A stretch of 64,000 bases of DNA from Planctomycetota bacterium (GTDB lineage Bacteria; Planctomycetota; Phycisphaerae; Phycisphaerales; Phycisphaeraceae), in assembly GCA_016350165.1 (NCBI GenBank), contig CP066225.1, positions 2,108,001-2,172,000 of the forward strand, in the 5' to 3' direction. A program made the position numbers and the translations under genes. Below, piece after piece: positions 24,176-52,519 of this stretch; the first letter of the stretch is position 1, and each line of letters begins with the position of its first letter. Below the pieces are notes generated by a model. That model saw nothing but the letters and a program-made list of their open reading frames with translations. It did no database searches and had not been told where the DNA came from.

Positions 24176-24952
24176 CTACGTCGTTCCATAACGCATCAAA
24201 GGCATCGCGACACTCGTAAACCCAAGGAATATGAGAATACTGTAAGCAATCCGCCTCAACCTCACCGCCCCCATCGTATGACCCAGCCCATTACCCAGCC
24301 GCGTTCCCAGCATCGTCATCGGGAAACACAACACCCCCACCACCGTCGCATACGCAATCTGATTCCCAAAGCTGTACCAAAGTAAAAACAGCATCGGTGC
24401 AATATCAACCAAAAAGATAAACCAGATAAATGTACGCATACGATTCGCATCCCACTTATGCGCCATCATATAAAGTATCAGCGGCGGCGATCCCATCCCC
24501 ACCAAACTCTCAATGTACCCACTCGTCAATCCAGCTGCACACCCCCACCCCGATGACAACCTCTCACGCGGTTTAATCTGTAAAAATAGCTGTAAACCCA
24601 CCGCCAACAACACAAACACACCCACAACCGACTTCGTTAATTGTTCATCAAGTTCATCCAGATAAAACAACGTCAGCACACCCAACGGCAGTGCGATCAA
24701 ATGAAATACCAACACAGGCAGAATCGATCGCCAATGCAGATGTTTTCGATAGTGATAACAACTCAGCCCATTCGCAAACAACATCGTCACCAGCATCACC
24801 GCAATCGCTTCAGGTAACGTAACACCACCTAAAACTAAAAGCGGAATACAAATGAGCCCAATCCCGAATCCAACAGCTCCATTAACAAGACTGCCGAACA
24901 TCAGCACAAATGCAATCCAGATGATTTCCTGCGTATTCACCATCTCATGCAA
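24176..24952 (-). CDS. TauE/SafE family permease, third of three tandem copies
   Basis: A 258-residue protein with about eight membrane helices in two repeats (GSLVNGAVGFGIGLICIPLLVLGGVTLPEAIAVML, then GYIESLVGMGSPPLILYMMAHKW). The motif GSLxxGxxGFGxGL is diagnostic of the TauE/SafE anion exporters for sulfite, sulfoacetate and similar. The residues after GMGSPP are nearly identical in all three copies. It could start at ATG 24952 or 24943. The substrate is unknown. Confidence 0.85.
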   Translation of the reverse strand: MHEMVNTQEIIWIAFVLMFGSLVNGAVGFGIGLICIPLLVLGGVTLPEAIAVMLVTMLFANGLSCYHYRKHLHWRSILPVLVFHLIALPLGVLTLFYLDELDEQLTKSVVGVFVLLAVGLQLFLQIKPRERLSSGWGCAAGLTSGYIESLVGMGSPPLILYMMAHKWDANRMRTFIWFIFLVDIAPMLFLLWYSFGNQIAYATVVGVLCFPMTMLGTRLGNGLGHTMGAVRLRRIAYSILIFLGFTSVAMPLMRYGTT

Positions 24953-25250
24953 TCGTTATATCTACGGTGCTTGATCGCATGTTTGAGTAACTAATGGTGC
25001 TTGATCGATGTGATTCGCGCCCGAAGACGCTCCTTCCTGTGTGTGATGAATTAAATCCCCTTATAAATACAGGGTCAAATTTCCATAGGCTATTCCACTC
25101 CCACATCAGGAAAACACTCACAACAACCTGCCCTCACACCCAACCATGACGCATTGTTCAACCAACCAATCCGTATTAACACAATTAGCACCTCATTGTC
25201 TTGTAAAAATCAAAGCCATCTAATACCTGAATAGTCTAAACACCACTCAC
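24953..25250. other. Spacer between TauE copies
   Basis: 298 bases with no gene or clear terminator. TGGTGCTTGATCG occurs twice (near 24968 and 24994), a short direct repeat of unknown meaning. Confidence 0.4.
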
Positions 25251-26012
25251 TTAATCAAGGAAAGGCAAACAAACACTCACAACACCCAGAATGATCAGAA
25301 TCACATACGCAACCACGCGCAACCGCTCTGTCCCCAGCGCATGCCCCAATATATTTCCAATCCGCGCGCCGATGAACGTGATTGGAAAAAACAAAATCCC
25401 GATCATTGTCGCATAAACAACCTCATGCCCAAACGTATACCACAGCATTAAAAACATCGGCAAAATATCAATTAAAAAAATCACCCAAATAAACGTACGC
25501 AATCGATGCACGTTCCAATTATGCGCCATCACATAAAGTATCAGCGGCGGCGAGCCCATCCCGACTAACCCTTCGATATACCCACTACTCAATCCCGCCG
25601 CTGCGCCCCACATCGGATGCAGATGATCCCGCCTTTTCACCTTCAACAATAACTGCGAGCCCACCGTACCTAACACGACAACGCCGACGATCGCCTTCGC
25701 GATATCAGGATTAAATTCTGTAAGAAAATACAACGTCACGATCCCAATCGGGAGCGCGAGCAAGTGCAAACTGAGTACGGGCGTAATCACTTTCCAATCA
25801 ATGTGCTTACGATAAAACCAACAACTCGCACCGTTGGCGAAAAACATCGTAATCAGCATAATCGCAATTGCCGACGGCAAACTGATTCCACCCAAAACCA
25901 AAAGCGGGATACAAATCAGCCCCACACCAAAACCCACCGCCCCTTGAGATAAACTCCCAAAGAACAAAACAAACGCAATCCAAATAATGTCCGCAACATC
26001 CAGTGTCGACAT
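25251..26012 (-). CDS. TauE/SafE family permease, second of three tandem copies
   Basis: A 253-residue paralog of its neighbours: GSLSQGAVGFGVGLICIPLLVLGGISLPSAIAIML and GYIEGLVGMGSPPLILYVMAHNW. It has eight predicted helices and the same His-rich loop CWFYRKHIDWK after helix three. It probably exports a sulfur-containing or organic anion across the inner membrane. It sits 64 bases behind copy one and could share its transcript. Confidence 0.87.
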   Translation of the reverse strand: MSTLDVADIIWIAFVLFFGSLSQGAVGFGVGLICIPLLVLGGISLPSAIAIMLITMFFANGASCWFYRKHIDWKVITPVLSLHLLALPIGIVTLYFLTEFNPDIAKAIVGVVVLGTVGSQLLLKVKRRDHLHPMWGAAAGLSSGYIEGLVGMGSPPLILYVMAHNWNVHRLRTFIWVIFLIDILPMFLMLWYTFGHEVVYATMIGILFFPITFIGARIGNILGHALGTERLRVVAYVILIILGVVSVCLPFLD

Positions 26013-26076
26013 ACCCGTCTAACAGTCAAATAGAGTTTCAGAATATAAAATCATATAACACACGAGTTACAGAATA

Positions 26077-26856
26077 CTATGCAAGCAGCGCATGATGCGT
26101 CCATTTCGCCAACGGCAAACAAATGCTAATCACCCCCAACGCCACAAGTATGCAATACGCCACCATCCGCAATCGATCTTCGCCCAACTGATGTCCCGCC
26201 TTATGTCCGATCCGCGTACCCAACAATGTGATCGGAAACAACAGAACCCCTATAAAAACAGCATGAACAATCTGATCGCCGAACGAGAACCACAGCAAAA
26301 GTAGTAGTGGAATAACATCAGATAAAAACACCGTCCAAATCGTCGTGCGCATACGATCTAGATTCCACTTATGCGCCATCACATACAACACCATCGGCGG
26401 CGATCCCATCCCCACCAACCCTTCCACATAACCGCTGGTAAACCCAGCTCCATATCCCCATGCCATATTCAAATGATCCTGCGGTTTGATTTTAAATAAC
26501 CACTGCACACCAACCGCGATGAGCACAAACACTCCGACCACAGCTTTCGCGATGTTTGGATCAAAGTTTTCGATGAAAAACAACGTACCCACACCAAAAG
26601 GTAGGCCGATCAGATGAAAAATCAAAACGGGGGTCACCGTTTTCCAGTGAATGTGTTTGCGATAACAGCAACAACTGAATGTGTTTACAAAGAGCATCGT
26701 AACAAGCATGATCGCAATCGCGTCAGGTAGTGGAATGTCGCCAAGGACGAGGAGCGGGATCGCGACGAGGCCGAGGCCGAAACTGACAGCACCTTGGGTA
26801 AAAGCGCCGACAAACAGGACGAATGCGATCCAGATGATGTGTGTCAGTTCGAACAT
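26077..26856 (-). CDS. TauE/SafE family permease, first of three tandem copies
   Basis: 259 residues: GAFTQGAVSFGLGLVAIPLLVLGDIPLPDAIAIML and GYVEGLVGMGSPPMVLYVMAHKW. It is clearly homologous to the two downstream copies. Base use changes inside this gene: the plus strand is C-rich up to about 26.6 kb and G-rich beyond, as if the 5' end lay across a replication-strand or rearrangement boundary. Confidence 0.87.
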   Translation of the reverse strand: MFELTHIIWIAFVLFVGAFTQGAVSFGLGLVAIPLLVLGDIPLPDAIAIMLVTMLFVNTFSCCCYRKHIHWKTVTPVLIFHLIGLPFGVGTLFFIENFDPNIAKAVVGVFVLIAVGVQWLFKIKPQDHLNMAWGYGAGFTSGYVEGLVGMGSPPMVLYVMAHKWNLDRMRTTIWTVFLSDVIPLLLLLWFSFGDQIVHAVFIGVLLFPITLLGTRIGHKAGHQLGEDRLRMVAYCILVALGVISICLPLAKWTHHALLA

Positions 26857-27521: not shown

Positions 27522-28304
27522 TTAGTTTCCTGAACGACGACGGGCGAGTAGTGGCAAAGTAGAGAGTGCGAGTAGTGAGAGAGATGCGGGTTCAGGGACG
27601 AGTACCAGATTTATGATGGCAGTTGTATCAATGACATTACCGAGAGGATTGTTGTAGGTATTGTCGAGATAAAAAGTGAGTGGTGAGCCATCTTGATTGG
27701 TGCCTGTCAGCGTAAGATTGCTACGGCCAGTAACGAGATGTGGGATATTGAGCATGAGACCTGTGACGGGAACACCGTCGAGTTTAAAGTCTGAACCATA
27801 GAAATTAATGGTACTACCAGAACGGGCATGGAAATAACCGTCAAAAGTTCCACCATAGATGTTTACGATGCCTGTGTATTCACTACTAAAATCTTTGACG
27901 CGTACATTTTTCATGGATCCGCCATAGATATTTGTAGTACTGCCATCTTCGGCGTGGTAGTTGGGCGCCATATCTCCAGCATAGATATTGGTGGTCCCAC
28001 CCCAATTCGTGTGGTACTCACCGAGGAAGTTGCCGTTGGAAACGTTAACGACACAACCAATATTTGAATTGAAGTAATGGCCGATGGTTCCTCCGGTGAT
28101 ATGAACTGTCGAATCGGAGCCGGTACTAAAATATTCGGGGAGCTCTCCTGTGCCTGACAGGTGGAGAACATCGCCGGCATTGATGCCATACACGATTGGA
28201 TCTGAGGGATCGTTGATGTGATACTCGACAGCGTTTGCTGAGAAACTGAAGCATAATGATGCGGCGAAAGCGGTCACTGCACTCAATAGTTTTGTTTTTT
28301 TCAT
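27522..28304 (-). CDS. PEP-CTERM sorting-signal surface protein with short beta repeats
   Basis: A 260-residue exported protein. It has a signal peptide (MKKTKLLSAVTAFAASLCFSF, cleavage near ANAVE), a repetitive centre where units such as GSTTNIYGGS, GIVNIYGGTF and GSTINFYGSDF recur about every 20 residues, as in a beta-solenoid, and a C-terminal tail VPEPASLSLLAL with a membrane helix and RRRSGN. An exosortase would recognise the PEP motif and remove the tail, attaching or releasing the protein at the cell surface. No exosortase gene lies in the window. AGGAG precedes the ATG. Confidence 0.85.
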   Translation of the reverse strand: MKKTKLLSAVTAFAASLCFSFSANAVEYHINDPSDPIVYGINAGDVLHLSGTGELPEYFSTGSDSTVHITGGTIGHYFNSNIGCVVNVSNGNFLGEYHTNWGGTTNIYAGDMAPNYHAEDGSTTNIYGGSMKNVRVKDFSSEYTGIVNIYGGTFDGYFHARSGSTINFYGSDFKLDGVPVTGLMLNIPHLVTGRSNLTLTGTNQDGSPLTFYLDNTYNNPLGNVIDTTAIINLVLVPEPASLSLLALSTLPLLARRRSGN

Positions 28305-29102: not shown

Positions 29103-30341
29103 TTATTTTGAGCGACGACGTAGTGTGCAGGCGAATGCGCAGATTGAGAATATAGCAAGGGATGTTGGTTCGGGGATGTATGCGGCGATGTCGTAGATGT
29201 ATGCGGCACCGGCGTCGTTGCCGAATTGATCATTTTGTTGTGCGCCGATGACGATGGTGTTGCCGCTGATAGCGACGGTGGAGCCGAACTCATCATATTT
29301 TCCAGCATCACTGGCGGTGAATTTTGCGAGTTGCTTGCCTGTGGTGATGTCGAAGAGGTAAGCGGAGCCGGAACCGTAGACATTGTTATCACTGTCTTTA
29401 GGTGCGCCAACAATTGCGTAGTTGCCATCGATATCGACGGCGGAACCAAAGCGATCAAAAGGATGGGCATCTTCTGCGACAAGTTTGAGAGGCGAATCAT
29501 CGTTGGAAAGGTCGAAGATATAGGCGTTACCGCCAGTCGTCATGTTGCCACCAATCAACGGCTCACCAACGATGGCTGTATTCTGGCTGATGGCAACGTC
29601 ACGTCCAAAGGCAGAAGTATTATTTCCGTTAACCGTTAATTCGGTAGTCTGGCCAGTAGCCAAATCATAAATGTTAACATAACTGCTGATGAATATATCG
29701 CCATGCGAGGCAACGATGATGTTTGTGCCATCAATATCGACGCATGAAGCTTGGCCGTTGTTAGGAATAATGCTCTGAATGGGTGGGCCATAGTCAGCGA
29801 AAAAATCGATTGCATGGGCTGCATTTGCGGGGTATTCATAGTCGAATCCGCTGACACCGACAACAGCCAAGTCATCGCTGATGGCAACAGAGTGGCCAAA
29901 TCCGTTACCTTCTGATGTGGGTGAATTTATTTGTTTGAACAGGTAGCCGGTGTTTGCGTTGAAGAAGTAAGCGGAGCCATCGTATTGTGTTGCATGCTTC
30001 TTATCAGGCGAAGATCCTACGACCACTCTACGATTGCTGATTGAAACAGAGGTTCCAAATCGAGTATGGTCTTGGCCATACTTGGCGATGAATTTATGTA
30101 ACTGATTGCCTGTGGTTGCATCGAAGACATAGGCGGCACCAGCGTTTATGCCGTTGATGTTGTCATCATTAAGTGCGCCGATGACGACTTTTCCGTCATC
30201 AATGGCTACGGAAGAACCGAAGCCGTCTTGAGCAGCAGCATCGCTGGCAGTGATTTTGATCTCGGCGTTTGTATTGGAAGCAAATGTGGTCAGTGCCAAT
30301 GCAAACACAGTAACCAAGATGAATGGATTATGCATATTCAT
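29103..30341 (-). CDS. FG-GAP beta-propeller surface protein with PEP-CTERM tail
   Basis: A 412-residue exported protein. A signal peptide (HNPFILVTVFALALTTFA) is followed by about seven repeats of the FG-GAP pattern: DGFGSSVAIDDGKVVIGA, TRFGTSVSISNRRVVVGS, NGFGHSVAISDDLAVVGV, SAFGRDVAISQNTAIVGE, DRFGSAVDIDGNYAIVGA and DEFGSTVAISGNTIVIGA. Such repeats form a beta-propeller, often binding ligands or Ca2+ at the surface. The tail IPEPTSLAIFSICAFACTLRRRSK is a variant PEP sorting signal. I start at ATG 30341 with GGAGAG upstream; the frame is open to 30398 but adds residues unlike a signal peptide. Confidence 0.85.
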   Translation of the reverse strand: MNMHNPFILVTVFALALTTFASNTNAEIKITASDAAAQDGFGSSVAIDDGKVVIGALNDDNINGINAGAAYVFDATTGNQLHKFIAKYGQDHTRFGTSVSISNRRVVVGSSPDKKHATQYDGSAYFFNANTGYLFKQINSPTSEGNGFGHSVAISDDLAVVGVSGFDYEYPANAAHAIDFFADYGPPIQSIIPNNGQASCVDIDGTNIIVASHGDIFISSYVNIYDLATGQTTELTVNGNNTSAFGRDVAISQNTAIVGEPLIGGNMTTGGNAYIFDLSNDDSPLKLVAEDAHPFDRFGSAVDIDGNYAIVGAPKDSDNNVYGSGSAYLFDITTGKQLAKFTASDAGKYDEFGSTVAISGNTIVIGAQQNDQFGNDAGAAYIYDIAAYIPEPTSLAIFSICAFACTLRRRSK

Positions 30342-30544
30342 CGGTCTCTCCATATCACAGTAACTGTTTGCAGGCGAAGTAACATTCAAAAGATACACTG
30401 ACCAGAATGTCCAATCTAGGGAAACAACTATATATTAAATAATTTATGCTATATTGCGCGTGAATAGATGAATAAGAGAAGATAGGTAAATGCGTACCAA
30501 CCCATCGTAAGTAGGTTGGCTGCGTTTGGAGTTGGTTAGGATAT

Positions 30545-41788: not shown

Positions 41789-41888
41789 AGCAAACATTCC
41801 CTTTTCTAATTATCAGCTCGCCGATTGCGCCGGGTGGGATTCCATAACAGGACCGGCAAGGCGGGCACAGGCGTCCCACGAGTCTCAG

Positions 41889-41917
41889 AGAATAGAATCT
41901 TTCCTACCCTTTATCAA
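41889..41917 (-). promoter_or_regulatory. Probable promoter of the mutase/decarboxylase cluster
   Basis: Minus-strand -35 TTGATA (41912-41917), 17-base spacer and -10 TATTCT (41889-41894), about 100 bases before the first ATG. Confidence 0.5.
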
Positions 41918-42462
41918 GTTAACCAGCACCTTTTGTCTTTTTATGAACCCTTTCTCCTTTAAGGATATACCCTATCGACATAAACCTCCACTAAACTGAT
42001 ACTTAAAACAAATTCACCCCTCACGACCCCTTTACGCCCCCCTTTATCGGCCCACCTATTTACATCAGTGAAATAACACTTAAAATCGCGTTCCAAATAG
42101 CAAAATACACGATTCCATAGTCTTTTTTAGCACCCATGAATACCTACTTTTCGCCCCAACTCAACAACAGCCACTAACCAAAAAAACTTTTACAATTTTC
42201 AATTTTCTCCACCGCCCATCCACCGACCCCCTAATCCCCTTAACCTACTTAATCGTTTCATGACACTATCCCCGCCCTTTCATCCATCTTTTTCACATGT
42301 AATTTTGTCGCAAATTATTACAAACTTACAAAAGACGTTTGCTCCTTTAATTAATAGCAATATACTCCCATTTAACACTGTCGCAATTCGAGGGGATAAA
42401 GGGATACCGAGGCGGAGAGAGCCGACCTACACCAATCATCTCGATCATGCGATTTAATCCAA

Positions 42463-42494
42463 CCCAAGCCTCCTACCAATGCTTGGGCTTATTT
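42463..42494 (+). terminator. Hairpin ahead of the first array gene
   Basis: Arms CCCAAGC and GCTTGGG around an 11-base loop, followed by CTTATTTTG, 30 bases before ATG 42524. It may be an attenuator in the leader. Confidence 0.35.
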
Positions 42495-42523
42495 TGCTTA
42501 TATCTATATAGAGAGACAACAAC

Positions 42524-43294
42524 ATGAATCGCCTGTGCTTATCTGTCATCCGACCGATGACCCTATCCATACTTCTAATACTCACACTCATCACCACCAC
42601 AACACACGCCAACCCCATCCTCGTCGAAGGCATCGCCACCAACGAACAATTCTCCCAAGGCCTCTTCGGCGTCGCCGCTCAAGTCCAAGGCAACTACATG
42701 CACACACCACTCACCTCAGACTTCTCATCCATTAATTCCGACACCGATCTCCAAGTCACCATATCAGCACCCACTGGCAAGCAATTCGTCGTTGAATTCA
42801 CCGCGGCAGGCGATCTTGATTTCAACATCAATCACAACGCACACTTCCCCCACGACTTTGTCGCTGTCGATGAAAACTACACCGTTACAAATTTCACACT
42901 GAACAATCTCCAAGGCGACGCTCACCCCATCTTCAATGCAGGCACCGCCCTGAAACCTAAAAACAGTCAATTCGATGGTGTCTTCACCATCCCCGGCGGA
43001 CAAAATATCAATCTCAATGCAAAAACCACACTCGCTGCGAACACATCATTCACCTTCACATCCTTCACCTTCAACCTCAACATCCCCGCAAGTTCTCAAG
43101 CAACATTCCAAGGCCCATACTTCCACAGCAGCGACTTCTCCGTTCGCGGCTTCATGAACTTCGTCAATGTCCAAGATCATTTCGGACCCTTCGTCCGCCT
43201 CGGCGACATCTCCCCACCAGTTCCAGAACCCGCATCTATCTCTCTATTAGCCCTTGGCTCACTCACACTCATCCGCAAACGCCAAACAAACTAA
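42524..43294 (+). CDS. PEP-CTERM array protein 1
   Basis: 256 residues: a signal peptide (hydrophobic MTLSILLILTLITTTTHA), a beta-rich mature domain of an unrecognised family, and the sorting tail PEPASISLLALGSLTLIRKR. It shares two landmarks with the next five genes: a DTDLQVTISAPTGKQFVVEF strand pair and FTFTSFTFNLNIPASSQATF before the tail. It has an extra C-terminal segment (SVRGFMNFVNVQDHFGPF) that its neighbours lack. The leader GAGAGACAACAAC before the ATG is identical to that of gene 2. It is likely exported and processed at the cell surface. Confidence 0.82.
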   Translation: MNRLCLSVIRPMTLSILLILTLITTTTHANPILVEGIATNEQFSQGLFGVAAQVQGNYMHTPLTSDFSSINSDTDLQVTISAPTGKQFVVEFTAAGDLDFNINHNAHFPHDFVAVDENYTVTNFTLNNLQGDAHPIFNAGTALKPKNSQFDGVFTIPGGQNINLNAKTTLAANTSFTFTSFTFNLNIPASSQATFQGPYFHSSDFSVRGFMNFVNVQDHFGPFVRLGDISPPVPEPASISLLALGSLTLIRKRQTN

Positions 43295-43389
43295 CCACCA
43301 AATAGACAACAACACCGCACACGCTCCCAACTTAGTTGTGCGCGTTCGCTATCCCCTTCTGTATTACCAAACATCAGAGAGACAACAAC

Positions 43390-44097
43390 ATGCCAACAAA
43401 TATCAAAACAACCGTGCTGTTCTTATTGACATTCATCGCGCTCATTACATCCACCCACGCCGCCAACCTCAACTACGAAATCACCTTCGATAGTGAATCA
43501 GTCCAATACCAAAAGCACTATCTGACTGACGATCTCGAAGCCACAAGAGCCAACCTGCATGCCTCACATGAAACCCCAATCAACCCCAACTTCAACGCAC
43601 TCCCTGAAACCACGCTCACACTCACCGTCAAATCATCCACCGGCCGCTTCTACGCCAACTTCTCGAAAGCTGGCGTGCTAGCCTTCAGTCTTCGCACGGG
43701 CAACATCATCCATTACACAGACGCCTTCATCGATGGTAATCCTCAGATCACATTCAATGATCTACAAGCCGATTTCACACCCCAAGTCATCAATGGTTAC
43801 ACACAAGCACACTTCACAGGCCCAGCTTCAGACGGCAACAGCCTCAACATGGAATTCAATATCCCTGAGAACAAAGCGTTCTCATTCGAATCCATCACCT
43901 TCACAACCATCATCCCAGAATCTTACAGCCACGATTTCTCTAATAGCGCCAGCACAGGAGCTTACTTCCTCGGCTTAATCCTAGACCCCACAACAGAACA
44001 CGGCCAGTTCCTCTCCCTCACACCAATCCCAGAACCCGCTTCTATCTCACTGTTAGCCCTCGGCTCACTCACCCTCATTCGCCGTAAACGTAAATAA
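43390..44097 (+). CDS. PEP-CTERM array protein 2
   Basis: 235 residues. Signal peptide TTVLFLLTFIALITSTHAA, family landmarks LPETTLTLTVKSSTGRFYANF and FSFESITFTTIIPESYSHDF, and tail PEPASISLLALGSLTLIRRKRK. ATG 43390 follows the same GAGAGACAACAAC leader as gene 1. The earlier open frame from 43336 is not used. Confidence 0.82.
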   Translation: MPTNIKTTVLFLLTFIALITSTHAANLNYEITFDSESVQYQKHYLTDDLEATRANLHASHETPINPNFNALPETTLTLTVKSSTGRFYANFSKAGVLAFSLRTGNIIHYTDAFIDGNPQITFNDLQADFTPQVINGYTQAHFTGPASDGNSLNMEFNIPENKAFSFESITFTTIIPESYSHDFSNSASTGAYFLGLILDPTTEHGQFLSLTPIPEPASISLLALGSLTLIRRKRK

Positions 44098-44160
44098 AAC
44101 AACAAACCTGTCGACAAACTAAAATCCAATCGACACATCATCACCATAAAGAGAAACTAT

Positions 44161-44925
44161 ATGAATCTATATACCAAAATTGCGACAAGCTTCGCGCTTG
44201 CTGCAATCACACTTACCTCTCCATCCAAAGCCTCAGCAGATATCGACCTTTACGCAACCCTTCACAACGAAATCTCATTCACAGGCACAGGCCCAGGACC
44301 CTTCGGCCCAACCCCTGTCTCATACGCATCCGTATTCTCAACAGGCCTCGACGTCTTCGACGCACCCTTCGAAACTAATTTCGCAGAACTCGGCGACACA
44401 ACCCTTAACATCCACTTACGCTCTCCCTCAGGCCGCTTCTACGTCGACTACTCCTCAGCACTCGACGAATTCGGTTTCCCCATTGAAATCGGCAACCTCA
44501 CAGCAATGATCACCATCAGCACCCCACCAGCAGTTCCCGATTTCTCACTCGATTCCTTCACCGGCGACACCTCCGTAACCATCAATGACATCCAAAACGA
44601 ACTCGAAGAACCAATGCCCTTCAACGTTCACGCCGACCTCTACCAAAGCACCATAGATGCAATGCAGATCGACCTGCAATACGACACCACATTCTCAGGC
44701 GCCTTCTCTTTCGAATCACTCACAGTCTCAATCAACATCCCCGAAGAGTTCAACGCTGACTTCTCCAACGGCATCCCTCTCGATGTCTACGCAGAAATCG
44801 GGGCTTCCCGTGAACAAGCCATCGGCGATCACGGCCAGTTCCTCTCAGCACTCCCAGTCCCAGAGCCAGCATCTATCTCACTATTAGCCCTCGCCACACT
44901 CCCGCTCCTCACACGTCGTCGCTAA
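44161..44925 (+). CDS. PEP-CTERM array protein 3
   Basis: 254 residues. Signal peptide ATSFALAAITLTSPSKASA, an acidic mature part, landmarks LGDTTLNIHLRSPSGRFYVDY and FSFESLTVSINIPEEFNADF, and tail PEPASISLLALATLPLLTRRR. AAGAGAAA precedes the ATG. Only 63 bases separate it from gene 2, so co-transcription is possible. A strong terminator follows. Confidence 0.82.
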   Translation: MNLYTKIATSFALAAITLTSPSKASADIDLYATLHNEISFTGTGPGPFGPTPVSYASVFSTGLDVFDAPFETNFAELGDTTLNIHLRSPSGRFYVDYSSALDEFGFPIEIGNLTAMITISTPPAVPDFSLDSFTGDTSVTINDIQNELEEPMPFNVHADLYQSTIDAMQIDLQYDTTFSGAFSFESLTVSINIPEEFNADFSNGIPLDVYAEIGASREQAIGDHGQFLSALPVPEPASISLLALATLPLLTRRR

Positions 44926-45424
44926 TACAAATCAATACAGACAAAGCACAAAAGCTCGCTCCGCGCGAGCTTTTTTTGTGTAAACCCATTCATGTAACAC
45001 ATGTAAAATTTCTTACATCAAATATTTTTATCTTTTCACACATAAACCCAACCACCTCTATATAAAGAACTTCGTTCTTTTGTTCGTACATAACAATTTC
45101 ATATCGCCCAATGTCAACGCAAAAAAACAATACACAACCGCAAAGCTTTCTATATTCACAGACCATTACGCAATTTACAGAATAATACGATCTTGCGGTA
45201 CCTCACTTTTTTCGTATATTGACTCCACACTACATGCAAGCGCATCATTTCTTTGCTTGCAACATAAACCCCAATTAACTTCCTGTCGCTTTGTAGGAGA
45301 AGAAAGACATGAAGCACGCTGTCCTTCGCACGAACCATTGTCTATTCAATGCATAGACTACAGCAGCTACACATCAATATTTGTGTAGTTGCTATACCCG
45401 TATCATTTTTTAGAGGAGAAAAGA
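44926..45424. other. Spacer in the array with leader hairpin
   Basis: 499 bases. After a terminator the sequence is AT-rich and holds a frame of 102 codons (45080-45388) that I judge spurious. A 12-base stem (AGCAGCTACACA/TGTGTAGTTGCT, one G-T pair) at about 45362-45393 lies just before gene 4 and could be a 5' leader structure. Confidence 0.4.
44950..44977 (+). terminator. Terminator after array gene 3
   Basis: Arms AAAGCTCGC and GCGAGCTTT around TCCGC, then a T run. Confidence 0.88.
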
Positions 45425-46114
45425 ATGTCACACTTATCAATCGTTAAAAATCTAATCATAATCACGACCTTAACCATAGCCTCTGCTGCACACGCTGCAG
45501 ATATCAACATCACTCGAACCGTCAGCAACGAAACTGCATACGAAAATTTCGGTTATATCAATGAAATTAGTGAAACGACCATCGACACCAACAACATTCT
45601 CACCGCCGACTTCAACACGCTCAGTGACACAACCATCGAACTCAACATCACTGCACCAATCGGCAAACGCTTTCACGTCATCGGCCATGACTTCGGCAAC
45701 CTATCCTTCAGAATTCATCACAATCTCAACACACTTTGGTCCGACCCAACAACCTTCATCAACACCAGCACATCAACGCTCAACGGTTTCCAAGGCATCC
45801 TAGCTGACAACGCTCACGCCACCGACAACTACTTCGGCAACTCCGGAAATACAGGCTACTCAACCGACACCTACTTCCAACTCACATCCGGCGACGATTT
45901 CTACTTCGACTCAATCACCATACTCTTCACAATCCCCGCATCCTTTAGCACAGACTTCAGCAACTCATCCCCACAAACCATCACAACCACAGTCCTCGCC
46001 TACGCAGACCCCGGATACGACCCCGGCCAATTCCTCTCCCTAGTCGCCGTCCCTGAACCCGCGTCTATCTCTCTATTAGCCCTCAGTTTGCTCGCCCTCA
46101 CTCGGCGCAAGTAA
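45425..46114 (+). CDS. PEP-CTERM array protein 4
   Basis: 229 residues. Signal peptide IVKNLIIITTLTIASAAHA, landmarks LSDTTIELNITAPIGKRFHV and FYFDSITILFTIPASFSTDF, and tail VPEPASISLLALSLLALTRRK. ATG 45425 has AGAGGAGAA upstream, the best ribosome-binding site in the array; the frame is open from 45389 but without a site. Confidence 0.82.
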   Translation: MSHLSIVKNLIIITTLTIASAAHAADINITRTVSNETAYENFGYINEISETTIDTNNILTADFNTLSDTTIELNITAPIGKRFHVIGHDFGNLSFRIHHNLNTLWSDPTTFINTSTSTLNGFQGILADNAHATDNYFGNSGNTGYSTDTYFQLTSGDDFYFDSITILFTIPASFSTDFSNSSPQTITTTVLAYADPGYDPGQFLSLVAVPEPASISLLALSLLALTRRK

Positions 46115-46198
46115 TTACCTTCCACGAAAAATATCCATTAAACCAATTTTATTACATCAAAAAATTATCTCAGATAAATTTAAAAGAGAAGAAAGATC

Positions 46199-46942
46199 AT
46201 GAACATCCTGAAAACATCTATCTTACTACTAGCTTGTACATTAATCACAACAACCACTTTCGCCGACGTCGATGTCAACTACACCCTTACCGACGAAAAC
46301 AATTATAACTACTGGTTCCCAGCCGATGGAAGCGATCCCGCCTTCGGCGGCTCTTACGCCTACACAAACTTACCCTTCTCTCCATCACTAACACCTTTCA
46401 CAATCGACTTCTCAACCATCAATACCGACACCACGCTCAACATCACACTCAACTCTTCCACCGGCAGATTCTACGCCAACTTCCCCGAAGCTGGCGGATT
46501 TTTCATCGGCATCACAGCTGACCGTGACACACACATCGGCACCGACGATTTCGACACCGACATCGTCTCCGTTACATTCAACGGCCTCATCGGCGCACCA
46601 GACATCACACACAGCTTCTCAAACGCATCACTCGGAACATCCGCAACGCCATGGTTCACCACTGAATCAAGCCTCACTGTTAACAGCCCCACAGAATTCT
46701 CATTCGAATCCGTCACCGTCTCATTCACCGTACCCGCTAGCTACAACACCGACTTCTCAACTTTCACCGAATTCGAAGAAGATTGGTTTGCATTTTCAAT
46801 CACCGCTAGCGTGGATGGCGCATATCCCGCTCCATTCGACTACGGTCAATTCTTCTCACTTAACCCGATCGTAATCCCCGAACCCGCATCTATCTCACTA
46901 TTAGCTCTCAGTTCACTCGCCCTCATCCGTCGCCGCAAATAA
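46199..46942 (+). CDS. PEP-CTERM array protein 5
   Basis: 247 residues. Signal peptide TSILLLACTLITTTTFA, landmarks INTDTTLNITLNSSTGRFYANF and FSFESVTVSFTVPASYNTDF, and tail IPEPASISLLALSSLALIRRRK. It is closest to gene 2 in the central motif (SSTGRFYANF is identical). AGAGAAG precedes the ATG. Confidence 0.82.
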   Translation: MNILKTSILLLACTLITTTTFADVDVNYTLTDENNYNYWFPADGSDPAFGGSYAYTNLPFSPSLTPFTIDFSTINTDTTLNITLNSSTGRFYANFPEAGGFFIGITADRDTHIGTDDFDTDIVSVTFNGLIGAPDITHSFSNASLGTSATPWFTTESSLTVNSPTEFSFESVTVSFTVPASYNTDFSTFTEFEEDWFAFSITASVDGAYPAPFDYGQFFSLNPIVIPEPASISLLALSSLALIRRRK

Positions 46943-47035
46943 ATCAACAGACACCCACGCAAGCTTTCGTTAACTCGAATTCTTGCGTTTAATTCTTACT
47001 GTATCACTTCGTACACATCCCATTGGATACACATC

Positions 47036-47731
47036 ATGAACCTGTTCAAATCGTCTATCTCCCTATTAGTCACCATCACCTTACTCTCATCCACCCACGC
47101 CGCCGGCATCAGCTTCACCCGCACCGTTGATACCGAAACCAACTCGCAAAACTCAGGTTCACTCACCGCCTACGTCCGAGCCAACGTCAACAATCAAACC
47201 ACAAACATCATCACTTCCAACTTTGCAAACCTCCCCGAAACCCCAGTCTCCATCACACTCACCGCACCCACCGGCTACCGCTTCCACGCCAAATACGATA
47301 ATCCCGGCACTATCTCCGCGTACATCATCAACAACGCACTACAAATCACACAAGACCTCTACCACAGCAACACAAACACAACATTCCATAACCTCCAAGG
47401 CATCGCACCACCTCCTGTCAACGCAACATACGCATCACTTTCAGGACCCGGCGGAGGCTTCTACCGATTCGCTGCATACTTTAACATCGCAGCACAATCC
47501 GAATTCACCTTCGACGCAATCACACTCAACGCAACCATCCCAGCACACATCAACCTCGACCTCTCCTCATACACATCACAAGATATCGTCTCAGGCATCG
47601 GCGGCGGACAAAACAACATCCTCGCCATTAACGATTTCCAATTCGTCAAACTCATCCCCATCCCCGAACCCGCTTCCCTATCACTCATCACCCTAGCCTC
47701 ATCCACACTACTTATCCGCAAACGCAAATAA
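47036..47731 (+). CDS. PEP-CTERM array protein 6
   Basis: 231 residues and the most divergent member. Signal peptide SSISLLVTITLLSSTHAA, landmarks LPETPVSITLTAPTGYRFHAKY and FTFDAITLNATIPAHINLDL, and tail IPEPASLSLITLASSTLLIRKRK. It ends the array, followed by a terminator. The ribosome-binding site is weak. Confidence 0.8.
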   Translation: MNLFKSSISLLVTITLLSSTHAAGISFTRTVDTETNSQNSGSLTAYVRANVNNQTTNIITSNFANLPETPVSITLTAPTGYRFHAKYDNPGTISAYIINNALQITQDLYHSNTNTTFHNLQGIAPPPVNATYASLSGPGGGFYRFAAYFNIAAQSEFTFDAITLNATIPAHINLDLSSYTSQDIVSGIGGGQNNILAINDFQFVKLIPIPEPASLSLITLASSTLLIRKRK

Positions 47732-47761
47732 ACCAACACAAAAACATCACCCCTCAAAACG

Positions 47762-47787
47762 CCCGGCCACCACACCGGGTTTTTTTT
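47762..47787 (+). terminator. Terminator at the end of the PEP-CTERM array
   Basis: Arms CCCGG and CCGGG around an 8-base loop, followed by eight T. Confidence 0.75.
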
Positions 47788-47869: not shown

Positions 47870-48634
47870 ATGAATATACACTTCATCAGAAACGCCACAC
47901 TCATCATCCACGCCAACGAACATTCAATCCTCGTCGATCCCATGTTCGCAGACCTCAGCACAATGATCCCCTTCGCACTCTTTCGTCATAAACCAAAACG
48001 CAACCCAACCGTCCCACTCCCTGACAACGCGCAACAAGCTTTCCAATCCATCACCACCGCACTTATCACCCACAATCACCCCGACCATATTGATAAGAAA
48101 GCAATCGACTTCCTCACCTCGCGCAACACGCCAACCTATTGCAGCACCATCGACGACAAAAAATTCAAAAACAAAAACTTAAACACCTACCCACTCACCA
48201 TCAACAATCACCAACCCTTCCTTGATGGCCACATCACACCCATCCCCACCCAACACGGCTACGGCGGCATCCTCACCAAACTCATGGGTAAAGGCGTCGG
48301 CTACTTCATCGAACTCCCCAACCAACCCACACTCTACATCTCAGGCGACACCATCATCACACACGACGTCAAAAGCGCACTCACCAGCTTAAAACCAGAC
48401 ATCGCCATCGTCGCAGCAGGCTCCGCACAAGCCGACCTCGGCAAACCAATCCTCATGACCATCGACGACATCGTCGAGTTCACTCGTCTCGCTCCAAATC
48501 AAGTCGTCGCCAATCACCTCGAAGCCATCAATCATTGTCCCACCACGCGCAAACAACTCGCCGCCGCCATGGACCAAGCCAACCTCACCGCAAAAATCCA
48601 AATCCCCACCGACGGCCAAACCCTCTCCTTCTAA
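47870..48634 (+). CDS. Metallo-beta-lactamase-fold hydrolase (UlaG-like)
   Basis: A 254-residue MBL-fold enzyme. THNHPDHID is the HxHxDH metal motif, TQHGYGG and YISGDTII supply further His and Asp ligands, and VANHLEAINHC is the last His strand. IHFIRNATLIIHANEHSILVDPMF is the usual UlaG-like start. The substrate is unknown; relatives hydrolyse lactones or phosphoesters. GAGGAA precedes the ATG. Confidence 0.87.
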   Translation: MNIHFIRNATLIIHANEHSILVDPMFADLSTMIPFALFRHKPKRNPTVPLPDNAQQAFQSITTALITHNHPDHIDKKAIDFLTSRNTPTYCSTIDDKKFKNKNLNTYPLTINNHQPFLDGHITPIPTQHGYGGILTKLMGKGVGYFIELPNQPTLYISGDTIITHDVKSALTSLKPDIAIVAAGSAQADLGKPILMTIDDIVEFTRLAPNQVVANHLEAINHCPTTRKQLAAAMDQANLTAKIQIPTDGQTLSF

Positions 48635-51759: not shown

Positions 51760-51823
51760 TCAGGTCTAGACAGCATCGTCTAGTACATTTGAGTATTTGA
51801 ACAAAATTGCATCGGAGCAACAA

Positions 51824-52519
51824 ATGAGATTGTTCAGTTATGCTGCGGCGGCGATCGTTACGCTGCTCTCAATTATTACATCACCGATACAGGCAGCACT
51901 GGTCACTGCAGACGACGTTGCAATCGATTCCGGTTCACAATACTTTTCTGCATTGAACCTGACCAACACAAGCGGCTTAACGCTGGGCAGTGACAATACA
52001 CTCACCGCTGACGATTTCTATACCAACTCATTCAACTACGTTGATTCATGGGTTACCAATACAGTCTCAGGCGGGGACTATTTTAATGTCGAATCAAGCC
52101 CGATCCTGACGTTCACCTTCGATAACGCTGTAGATATCGATCAGGTTGCGATCTGGGGCTATGTGGGTTTTGATGATACACGCGGGGTGGGTAACTCTGC
52201 GAGCCAGGGCTTCATCGAGTTTTCAACGGATGGCGTGAACTTTGGACCCGCCATTGCGTTTTCAATTGACCCGACACAAGTGGGCGAAGGTGCGACTGTG
52301 ACTGATTTTGATTTACAGCACGATATTGTCGCGGCCCGTGTGACGTTCACCGATAACCATGCGAACCTCGACGGCGGGGACCGCGTGGGCGCGAACCTTG
52401 TCGCGTTCAACACGGTCATTGTTCCGACTCCGAGCGCGATGTGGTTGATCATGTTCGGGCTTGCGGGCTTAGTGGTGATGCGGAACAGACGTAAACTTGC
52501 ATATGCGAGAGTTCGATAA
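51824..52519 (+). CDS. Secreted discoidin-like protein with PTPSA-type sorting tail
   Basis: 231 residues: a signal peptide (FSYAAAAIVTLLSIITSPIQAA), a beta-sandwich domain with AIWGYVGFDD and IEFSTDGVNFGPA that resembles the F5/8 type C (discoidin) fold, and the tail VPTPSAMWLIMFGLAGLVVMRNRRK. This is a PEP-CTERM relative in proteobacterial style rather than the PEPASISLLAL style of the other proteins here. GGAG precedes ATG 51824. With its sigma-54-like promoter it may be a separately acquired or separately sorted surface protein. Confidence 0.75.
   Translation: MRLFSYAAAAIVTLLSIITSPIQAALVTADDVAIDSGSQYFSALNLTNTSGLTLGSDNTLTADDFYTNSFNYVDSWVTNTVSGGDYFNVESSPILTFTFDNAVDIDQVAIWGYVGFDDTRGVGNSASQGFIEFSTDGVNFGPAIAFSIDPTQVGEGATVTDFDLQHDIVAARVTFTDNHANLDGGDRVGANLVAFNTVIVPTPSAMWLIMFGLAGLVVMRNRRKLAYARVR

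Follow-up and report, generated by a model that had tools for sequence, protein, structure and literature searches.

We analyzed a stretch of 64,000 nucleotides (contig CP066225.1, positions 2,108,001 to 2,172,000), referred to below as the window, from a planctomycete genome that consists of one contig of 5,234,020 bases. We have taken this genome as that of Poriferisphaera heterotrophicis ZRK32, and the comparison genome from the same genus as that of P. corsica KS4. The subject of this work is an array of six neighboring genes whose products end in a PEP-CTERM sorting tail. A preliminary description, made from the letters alone, had called them six tandem paralogs of an unrecognized family, locally duplicated and diversified, perhaps for adhesion or surface variation. 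It had proposed a profile search of other genomes, structure prediction, checks for positive selection and recombination, and a comparison of copy number between relatives, and each of these has now been carried out.

The six-gene array and its products

The coordinates of the six genes and of the features around them are collected in Table 1. The intergenic gaps, from gene 1 to gene 6 in order, are 95, 63, 499, 84 and 93 nucleotides (nt), and for genes 2 and 4 an ATG start was chosen over a longer open frame beginning with TTG. Each copy has its own intact frame, a signal-like start and a PEP-CTERM tail, and the products span 229-256 amino acids.

Table 1. Genes and other features of the array, with positions in the window
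Feature	Position	Strand	Remarks
Long non-coding region before gene 1	41878-42523	+	about 88% identical in KS4
14-base leader before gene 1	42510-42523	+	identical to that of gene 2
Gene 1	42524-43294	+	256 amino acids; KS4 ortholog, 85% identity over the whole protein
14-base leader before gene 2	43376-43389	+	identical to that of gene 1
Gene 2	43390-44097	+	235 amino acids from ATG; KS4 ortholog, 59% identity
Gene 3	44161-44925	+	254 amino acids; without clear KS4 ortholog
Terminator-like hairpin after gene 3	44950-44974	+	fold z -3.8; divides the array into two units
Gene 4	45425-46114	+	229 amino acids from ATG; without clear KS4 ortholog
Gene 5	46199-46942	+	247 amino acids; without clear KS4 ortholog
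Gene 6	47036-47731	+	231 amino acids; without clear KS4 ortholog
Terminator-like hairpin after gene 6	47761-47780	+	fold z -3.0

To compare the copies without their shared ends, we defined the mature parts as what is left when signal and tail are cut off (177-201 residues). These parts are 24-37% identical in pairwise global alignments, and all 15 gene pairs outscored every one of 500 shuffles (z 7.9-21.2). Profiles built with one member left out recovered the omitted member at 65-103 bits in six of six cases, where the best of 1000 shuffles reached 12.5. The homology of the mature domains is real, and by these comparisons the six genes are tandem paralogs of one PEP-CTERM protein family, as the preliminary description had it. 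The two motifs by which it had characterized the proteins occur in all six in looser versions; by eye, they are found exactly as written in gene 2 only.

The tail makes up the last 22-25 residues, starting with PEPAS and continuing with a hydrophobic stretch and a basic end. PF07589 matches all six at an expectation value (E) ≤1, with gene 1 at 19.4 bits, below the curated 20.7, and the 16-bit cut-off of TIGR02595 is reached in five of the six. Near the start of all six, a hydrophobic stretch with an A-x-A-like site can be made out by eye. The mature parts are rich in Thr (12.1%), Ser (9.2%) and Asn (8.5%) and contain no Cys (0%), against 5.4, 5.7, 3.3 and 1.0% in 11 other genes of the window.

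If the tails are processed, the enzyme would be encoded elsewhere, and the preliminary description was right that no exosortase is linked. Three exosortase homologs in the genome match PF09721 over the Pfam cut-off, at 891, 1603 and 4144 kb. One of them adjoins an EpsI-like gene that scores below the EpsI cut-offs, and one lies in a 689-residue frame with a long C-terminal extension. Two carry the motif EACNG or EACAG; the third has no Cys motif. The cysteine of this motif is catalytic in exosortases. A figure legend in PMC1569441 proposes a cysteine nucleophile for the enzyme. All five of the other genomes that hold the six-gene family, described below, also encode exosortase homologs.

The homolog without the Cys motif is an observation in its own right. 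It is present in both Poriferisphaera species (L029:1438-2340, at 891 kb in ZRK32, and L082:567-1469), with ETGR and HTGR at the site of EACNG/EACAG in the other two ZRK32 homologs, and its conserved neighbor weakly resembles nucleotidyltransferases. It is possibly inactive, or has a different task.

A narrow head family with a predicted beta sandwich

With the tail left on, Pfam recognized the tail alone at a useful score; with the tail removed, its best match had an E of 0.07. In NCBIfam the best match by E-value was NF038120 (PEP_CTERM_QFxxD), which aligned with the C-terminal 100 residues of gene 2 at 33.4 bits, well under its 80-bit cut-off, and none of 13 tail-less family members matched it at E ≤0.1. 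The THxN family NF038125 (cut-off 85 bits) reached 17.5 bits at best, with gene 1. A profile search of Protein Data Bank (PDB) sequences gave a best E of 0.16, to an NADH oxidase. These profile searches place the array in no known family with a known role, which upholds the description of the family as unrecognized, and no paper on this array turned up by title or abstract in the open-licence literature. We rate the head, on these sequence searches, as a new family for PEP-CTERM proteins that is not described in Pfam or NCBIfam.

AlphaFold models were built from the six window rows only. Both the model of gene 2 (predicted local distance difference test score, pLDDT, 63.5) and that of gene 6 without its tail (pLDDT 74.5, predicted template modeling score 0.75) are all-beta sandwiches. 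The structure libraries searched were the PDB and viral models, and the absence of a match in them does not imply a new fold. Foldseek returned no hit at E ≤0.001 for either model, with best values of 0.014 and 0.0051 against the PDB and 0.0018 against the viral models, and VIA-align gave best Z scores of 3.7 and 4.6, with none at Z 5. The weak matches are a mixture of collagen-binding domains, carbohydrate-binding modules (CBMs), tumor necrosis factor (TNF)/C1q-type chains, capsids, a clostridial toxin domain and phage receptor-binding heads. Together these matches suit a predicted binding or structural module, and no function is shown by them.

The presence of CBMs in this mixture raises an alternative in which the proteins are carbohydrate-binding accessories of polysaccharide degradation, each copy directed at a different marine glycan. 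CBM35, CBM27, CBM6 and CBM3 chains are among the weak similarities, and one member matches a CBM-like family in Pfam (E 0.053 whole, 0.073 tail-less). However, CBM35 (Z 3.7) and CBM27 (Z 3.4) have unrelated rows beside them whose Z is as high or higher, and the matches show no more than a generic beta-sandwich likeness, since capsid, TNF/C1q-type and phage receptor-binding chains score equally. On these fold and Pfam comparisons we consider glycan degradation unlikely as the setting of these proteins, and prefer a place in the surface or matrix, as developed below.

A profile of all six rows matched at least 140 places in the ZRK32 genome at E ≤1, among the best 150 of 183 candidates. Only the six genes matched it over its whole length; the other matches begin no earlier than position 110 of the profile and extend into the tail. 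Likewise, among 51 other frames with a PEP tail from 16 stretches of the same genome, none has this head, the best E being 1.1. In genome samples, the full profile at E 1e-10 found the family in 5 of 61 genomes, and a tail-less profile of 13 rows found it in 2 of 392 genomes across the phylum and in six of the 400 sampled from the order, each count including ZRK32; the phylum and order counts rest on the best eight candidates per genome, and the two samples overlap. The family looks rare and, as judged by these profiles in the sampled genomes, confined to the order. Gene 2 had no match in a plasmid collection, and a three-row alignment had none among viral contigs; the phage collection was not searched. 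Profile scans of genome contigs added no named relative, and near records were possibly left out of them. We also tried TIGR02595 as a counter of PEP-CTERM genes, but at E ≤10 it gave at least 150 candidates in ZRK32 and also matched 12 of 14 control genomes (two over cut-off), and the count was not used.

Age, upkeep and organization of the array

At the corresponding locus KS4 carries three copies, next to the same metabolic genes; we take these genes to be a methylmalonyl-CoA mutase locus (recognized without a family scan). When all six proteins were compared by tblastn with 19 kb of KS4, these three places were the only ones returned, giving copy numbers of six in ZRK32 and three in KS4. 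The first KS4 copy (s1) is the ortholog of gene 1 and the second (s2) that of gene 2, and the third is without a clear partner. The tree gives full support to the pairs 1-s1 and 2-s2; none of the ten remaining inner branches is starred, and the positions of genes 3-6 are unsure owing to long branches. Since two KS4 copies are orthologous, part of the array predates the species split. Within genes 3-6, the closest pairs are separated by 2.3 and 3.1 changes per column, compared with 0.12 and 0.9 for the ortholog pairs. Because genes 3-6 are more diverged from one another than the orthologs are, the greater part of the array probably arose before the split, and KS4 would have lost copies. The rates among copies are uneven, which leaves the dating of genes 3-6 less than firm.

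A recent burst of duplication in the ZRK32 species would explain why four copies have no clear ortholog in KS4. However, genes 1 and 2 do have orthologs there, and the distances just given place genes 3-6 further apart than either ortholog pair, so that we find such a burst hard to credit. Of the local duplication and diversification proposed in the preliminary description, duplication and divergence are supported, and what falls away is any reading of them as fresh. A single origin of the six genes apart from KS4 was rejected (approximately unbiased, AU, test, p 1e-7), as expected given the two ortholog pairs; a single origin of all nine Poriferisphaera copies was not rejected (AU p 0.27), nor was it shown. 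A block duplication of genes 1-3 into genes 4-6 was set aside as well: the tree pairs 3-5 and 4-6, with modest support, and not 1-4, 2-5 and 3-6, and the similarity scores also disagree with it.

By the NG86 method, the rates of nonsynonymous (dN) and synonymous (dS) change are 0.086 and 0.187 for gene 1 against s1 (ratio 0.46), and 0.331 and 0.914 for gene 2 against s2 (ratio 0.36); YN00 gives 0.24 for gene 1. Constraint is weaker in genes 1 and 2 than in the seven neighboring genes, since the ratios 0.46 and 0.36 exceed the 0.01-0.12 found there. Only in the central third of gene 1 does dN (0.096) exceed dS (0.075), on few changes. There is no clear sign of positive selection in these values, which are pairwise dN/dS estimates made without a codon-model test.

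We then considered whether copies exchange sequence. Between 41800 and 47870, inverted repeats reaching 18 nt and long simple repeats are both absent; the longest word common to two genes is 20 nt, and the one short tandem repeat is 15 nt x 2.1. At identical residues, the codon is also identical in 122 of 214 cases in the tails and in 485 of 806 in the mature parts. Recent tail swapping or gene conversion was rejected, as codon identity is not raised in the tails over the mature parts. The array tails agree in codons more often with one another (122 of 214) than with the other PEP-CTERM genes of the genome that were compared (1139 of 3503), and more often than the fraction of 0.40 expected from codon usage. 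This raised sharing extends to the mature parts, which fits common descent.

These results bear on the surface variation raised in the preliminary description, in which the copies would be silent or alternately expressed and shuffled to escape phages or predators. The strong divergence of the tandem copies, their number (six against three in the two species) and the excess of dN in the middle of gene 1 are what such a locus might leave behind. However, phase- or antigenic-variation cassette loci carry repeats or inverted repeats able to drive switching, and at the sizes given above none was found in the array. Every copy is intact from signal-like start to tail, the shared tracts are short, the tails bear no mark of conversion, and over whole genes the ortholog pairs stay below a dN/dS of 1. 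A switching or recombining surface-variation locus therefore seems highly improbable to us, and we favor slow duplication, divergence and loss.

The array appears to be organized in units, which we define from terminator-like hairpins only; the hairpins are themselves pattern matches. Those after genes 3 and 6 each fold better than all 200 shuffles, and KS4 has a terminator-like hairpin after its second gene (L030:10177-10204). Total counts of terminator-like patterns are little to moderately above those in shuffles (6 against 4.2, standard deviation 2.3, and 6 against 2.6, standard deviation 1.7). We read this as two putative units in each species, of three and three genes in ZRK32 and of two and one in KS4.

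Genes 1 and 2 were said to share an identical leader of 13 bases before the ATG. The identical leader exists, and its length is 14 bases. The word occurs exactly twice in 5.23 Mb, counting either strand, and the KS4 leader sites are similar to it and not identical. It looks like a remnant of duplication kept together with the ribosome-binding region. In the non-coding region before gene 1, the part at 42380-42523 has predicted hairpins and is 92% identical in KS4. We do not claim an RNA element there: nothing in the window matches Rfam at gathering score, the region before gene 1 gives no E better than 3, and folding is close to that of shuffles and slightly better (z -1.6 in ZRK32, -0.8 in KS4). 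Across 61 genomes this part has no strong match elsewhere, the next best reaching E 0.008 over 33 bases. A sigma-54 site was also discarded, as its four hits all have three mismatches and all fall before gene 1, the longest upstream region searched.

Two further observations concern the same locus. First, ZRK32 and KS4 resemble each other to an unusual degree in gene 1 and the roughly 640 nt before it (41878-43230). Fourfold sites of gene 1 are identical at 97 of 116 positions, against 560 of 938 in the seven neighboring genes, and its dS of 0.19 compares with 0.48-2.0 in them; a comparison with the nearest gene by itself (50 of 70 fourfold sites identical) falls short of significance (p 0.06). 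Divergence between the two species is greater in the last third of gene 1. Either exchange between lineages or constraint on the DNA could produce this likeness. Second, downstream of the array, KS4 encodes a 1082-residue protein with an autotransporter beta-domain (L030:11286-14534), and at that place ZRK32 has a gene with a metallo-beta-lactamase fold (47870-48634).

Proposed role and comparison with known systems

We propose that each product would be exported by its putative signal peptide and anchored in the inner membrane through its C-terminal PEP-CTERM helix, until an exosortase whose gene lies elsewhere in the genome released it or transferred it outwards. We infer the processing step because the tail is present and the genome encodes exosortases. 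The mature domain, Cys-free and rich in Ser, Thr and Asn, would be a beta sandwich as predicted, and the array would change by slow duplication, divergence and loss of members, in two units in both species. The proteins are probably exosortase-processed surface or matrix proteins that bind or pack exopolysaccharide. The model as a whole, of old tandem PEP-CTERM paralogs that are exported, processed by an exosortase and part of the surface or matrix, seems likely to us. For the narrower proposal, that they are structural or adhesive parts of a surface or exopolysaccharide matrix and that copies differ in their binding partner, we see the balance as even.

Several points weigh against this model. 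The tail of gene 3, at 14.9 bits, is slightly below the TIGR02595 cut-off of 16, and the signal peptides were assessed by eye alone. No exosortase lies in the window or near the array (about 2150 kb), the nearest being more than 500 kb away. As neither Foldseek nor VIA gave a standout structural relative, a binding role is without direct support. More than 65% of PEP-CTERM genes are in single-gene operons according to the part of PMC1569441 drawn on here, while the array would form two multi-gene units. The sole functional precedent that we considered, the flocculation protein PepA (NF033554; PMC9850573), is also a PEP-CTERM protein. It is reported to affect floc formation and bound polymer, which speaks for the model, and its gene is reported not to be involved in biofilm formation, which speaks against it. 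The best score of the array against NF033554 is 16.8 bits (gene 4; cut-off 80), and there is no evidence that the heads share descent.

The array is one of several in its genome. Defining a cluster by same strand and a start-to-start gap of at most 2.5 kb, we found 66 of the at least 140 profile matches in clusters, whereas across 1000 random placements an average of 8.8 and at most 25 were clustered; the weaker matches may in part be due to chance. At E ≤0.001, 36 of 73 matches are clustered (random mean 2.5, maximum 11), and 30 of 67 when the six genes are left out. Head families defined by BLAST in the fetched stretches form tandem groups of 7, 6 (the six-gene array), 4, 3, 3 and 3 members and four tandem pairs, with one further trio and one further pair spread across separate stretches or places. 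These stretches were chosen for clustered or extended matches, and the family counts are not representative of the genome. We tentatively suggest, as a view we hold with less confidence than the model above, that the surface repertoire of Poriferisphaera is built from many private tandem arrays, each with its own narrow head family and all with a common sorting tail, whose sizes shift between sister species. If this is true, arrays would be the unit in which the surface is rebuilt, with the exosortase as a fixed port.

Other sorted-looking products are encoded in the window. The gene at 29103-30398 specifies a PEP-CTERM-tailed protein with six FG-GAP_2 stretches, and by eye similar proteins occur in stretches L046 and L048. 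Of the products of 27522-28304 and 51797-52519, one has a PEP-CTERM-like tail (TIGR02595 14.8, cut-off 16) and the other a VPLPA-CTERM-like tail (21.4 bits, below its cut-off). Apart from these, three tandem TauE/SafE-type transporter genes, all above the Pfam cut-off, lie on the minus strand at 24176-26856.

The closest parallel within the genome is an array at 2671-2676 kb (L034), which likewise consists of tandem PEP-CTERM paralogs, seven in number. Its members are unlike the six and do not match the six-gene head profile. Their family was found in 2 of 21 genomes, ZRK32 and KS4, with 7+1 copies in the former and 2+2 in the latter, and with none in the 19 others at E 1e-10. Several unrelated paralog arrays in one genome make the published idea that PEP-CTERM proteins turn over fast testable locus by locus, and ZRK32 and KS4 are a cultured pair in which array size (six against three), orthology and units can be compared.

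The array resembles PEP-CTERM substrates as they are known (TIGR02595, PF07589 and the account of Haft et al. 2006, PMC1569441, as far as drawn on here) in its signal-like start, in the PEP motif with the hydrophobic helix and basic cluster that follow, in its low Cys and high Ser, Thr and Asn, and in heads without recognized homology. It differs from those described so far in that its head family is absent from the curated families scanned, and it thus adds a new head family to the PEP-CTERM world without overturning an established view. In the same sections, PMC1569441 describes PEP-CTERM proteins as mostly lacking recognizable heads, multiplying within lineages and turning over rapidly among species within a genus, where many have no partner, a pattern that the paper attributes to frequent duplication and loss. 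The six genes, set by sequence beside that account, are a clear local case of this turnover.

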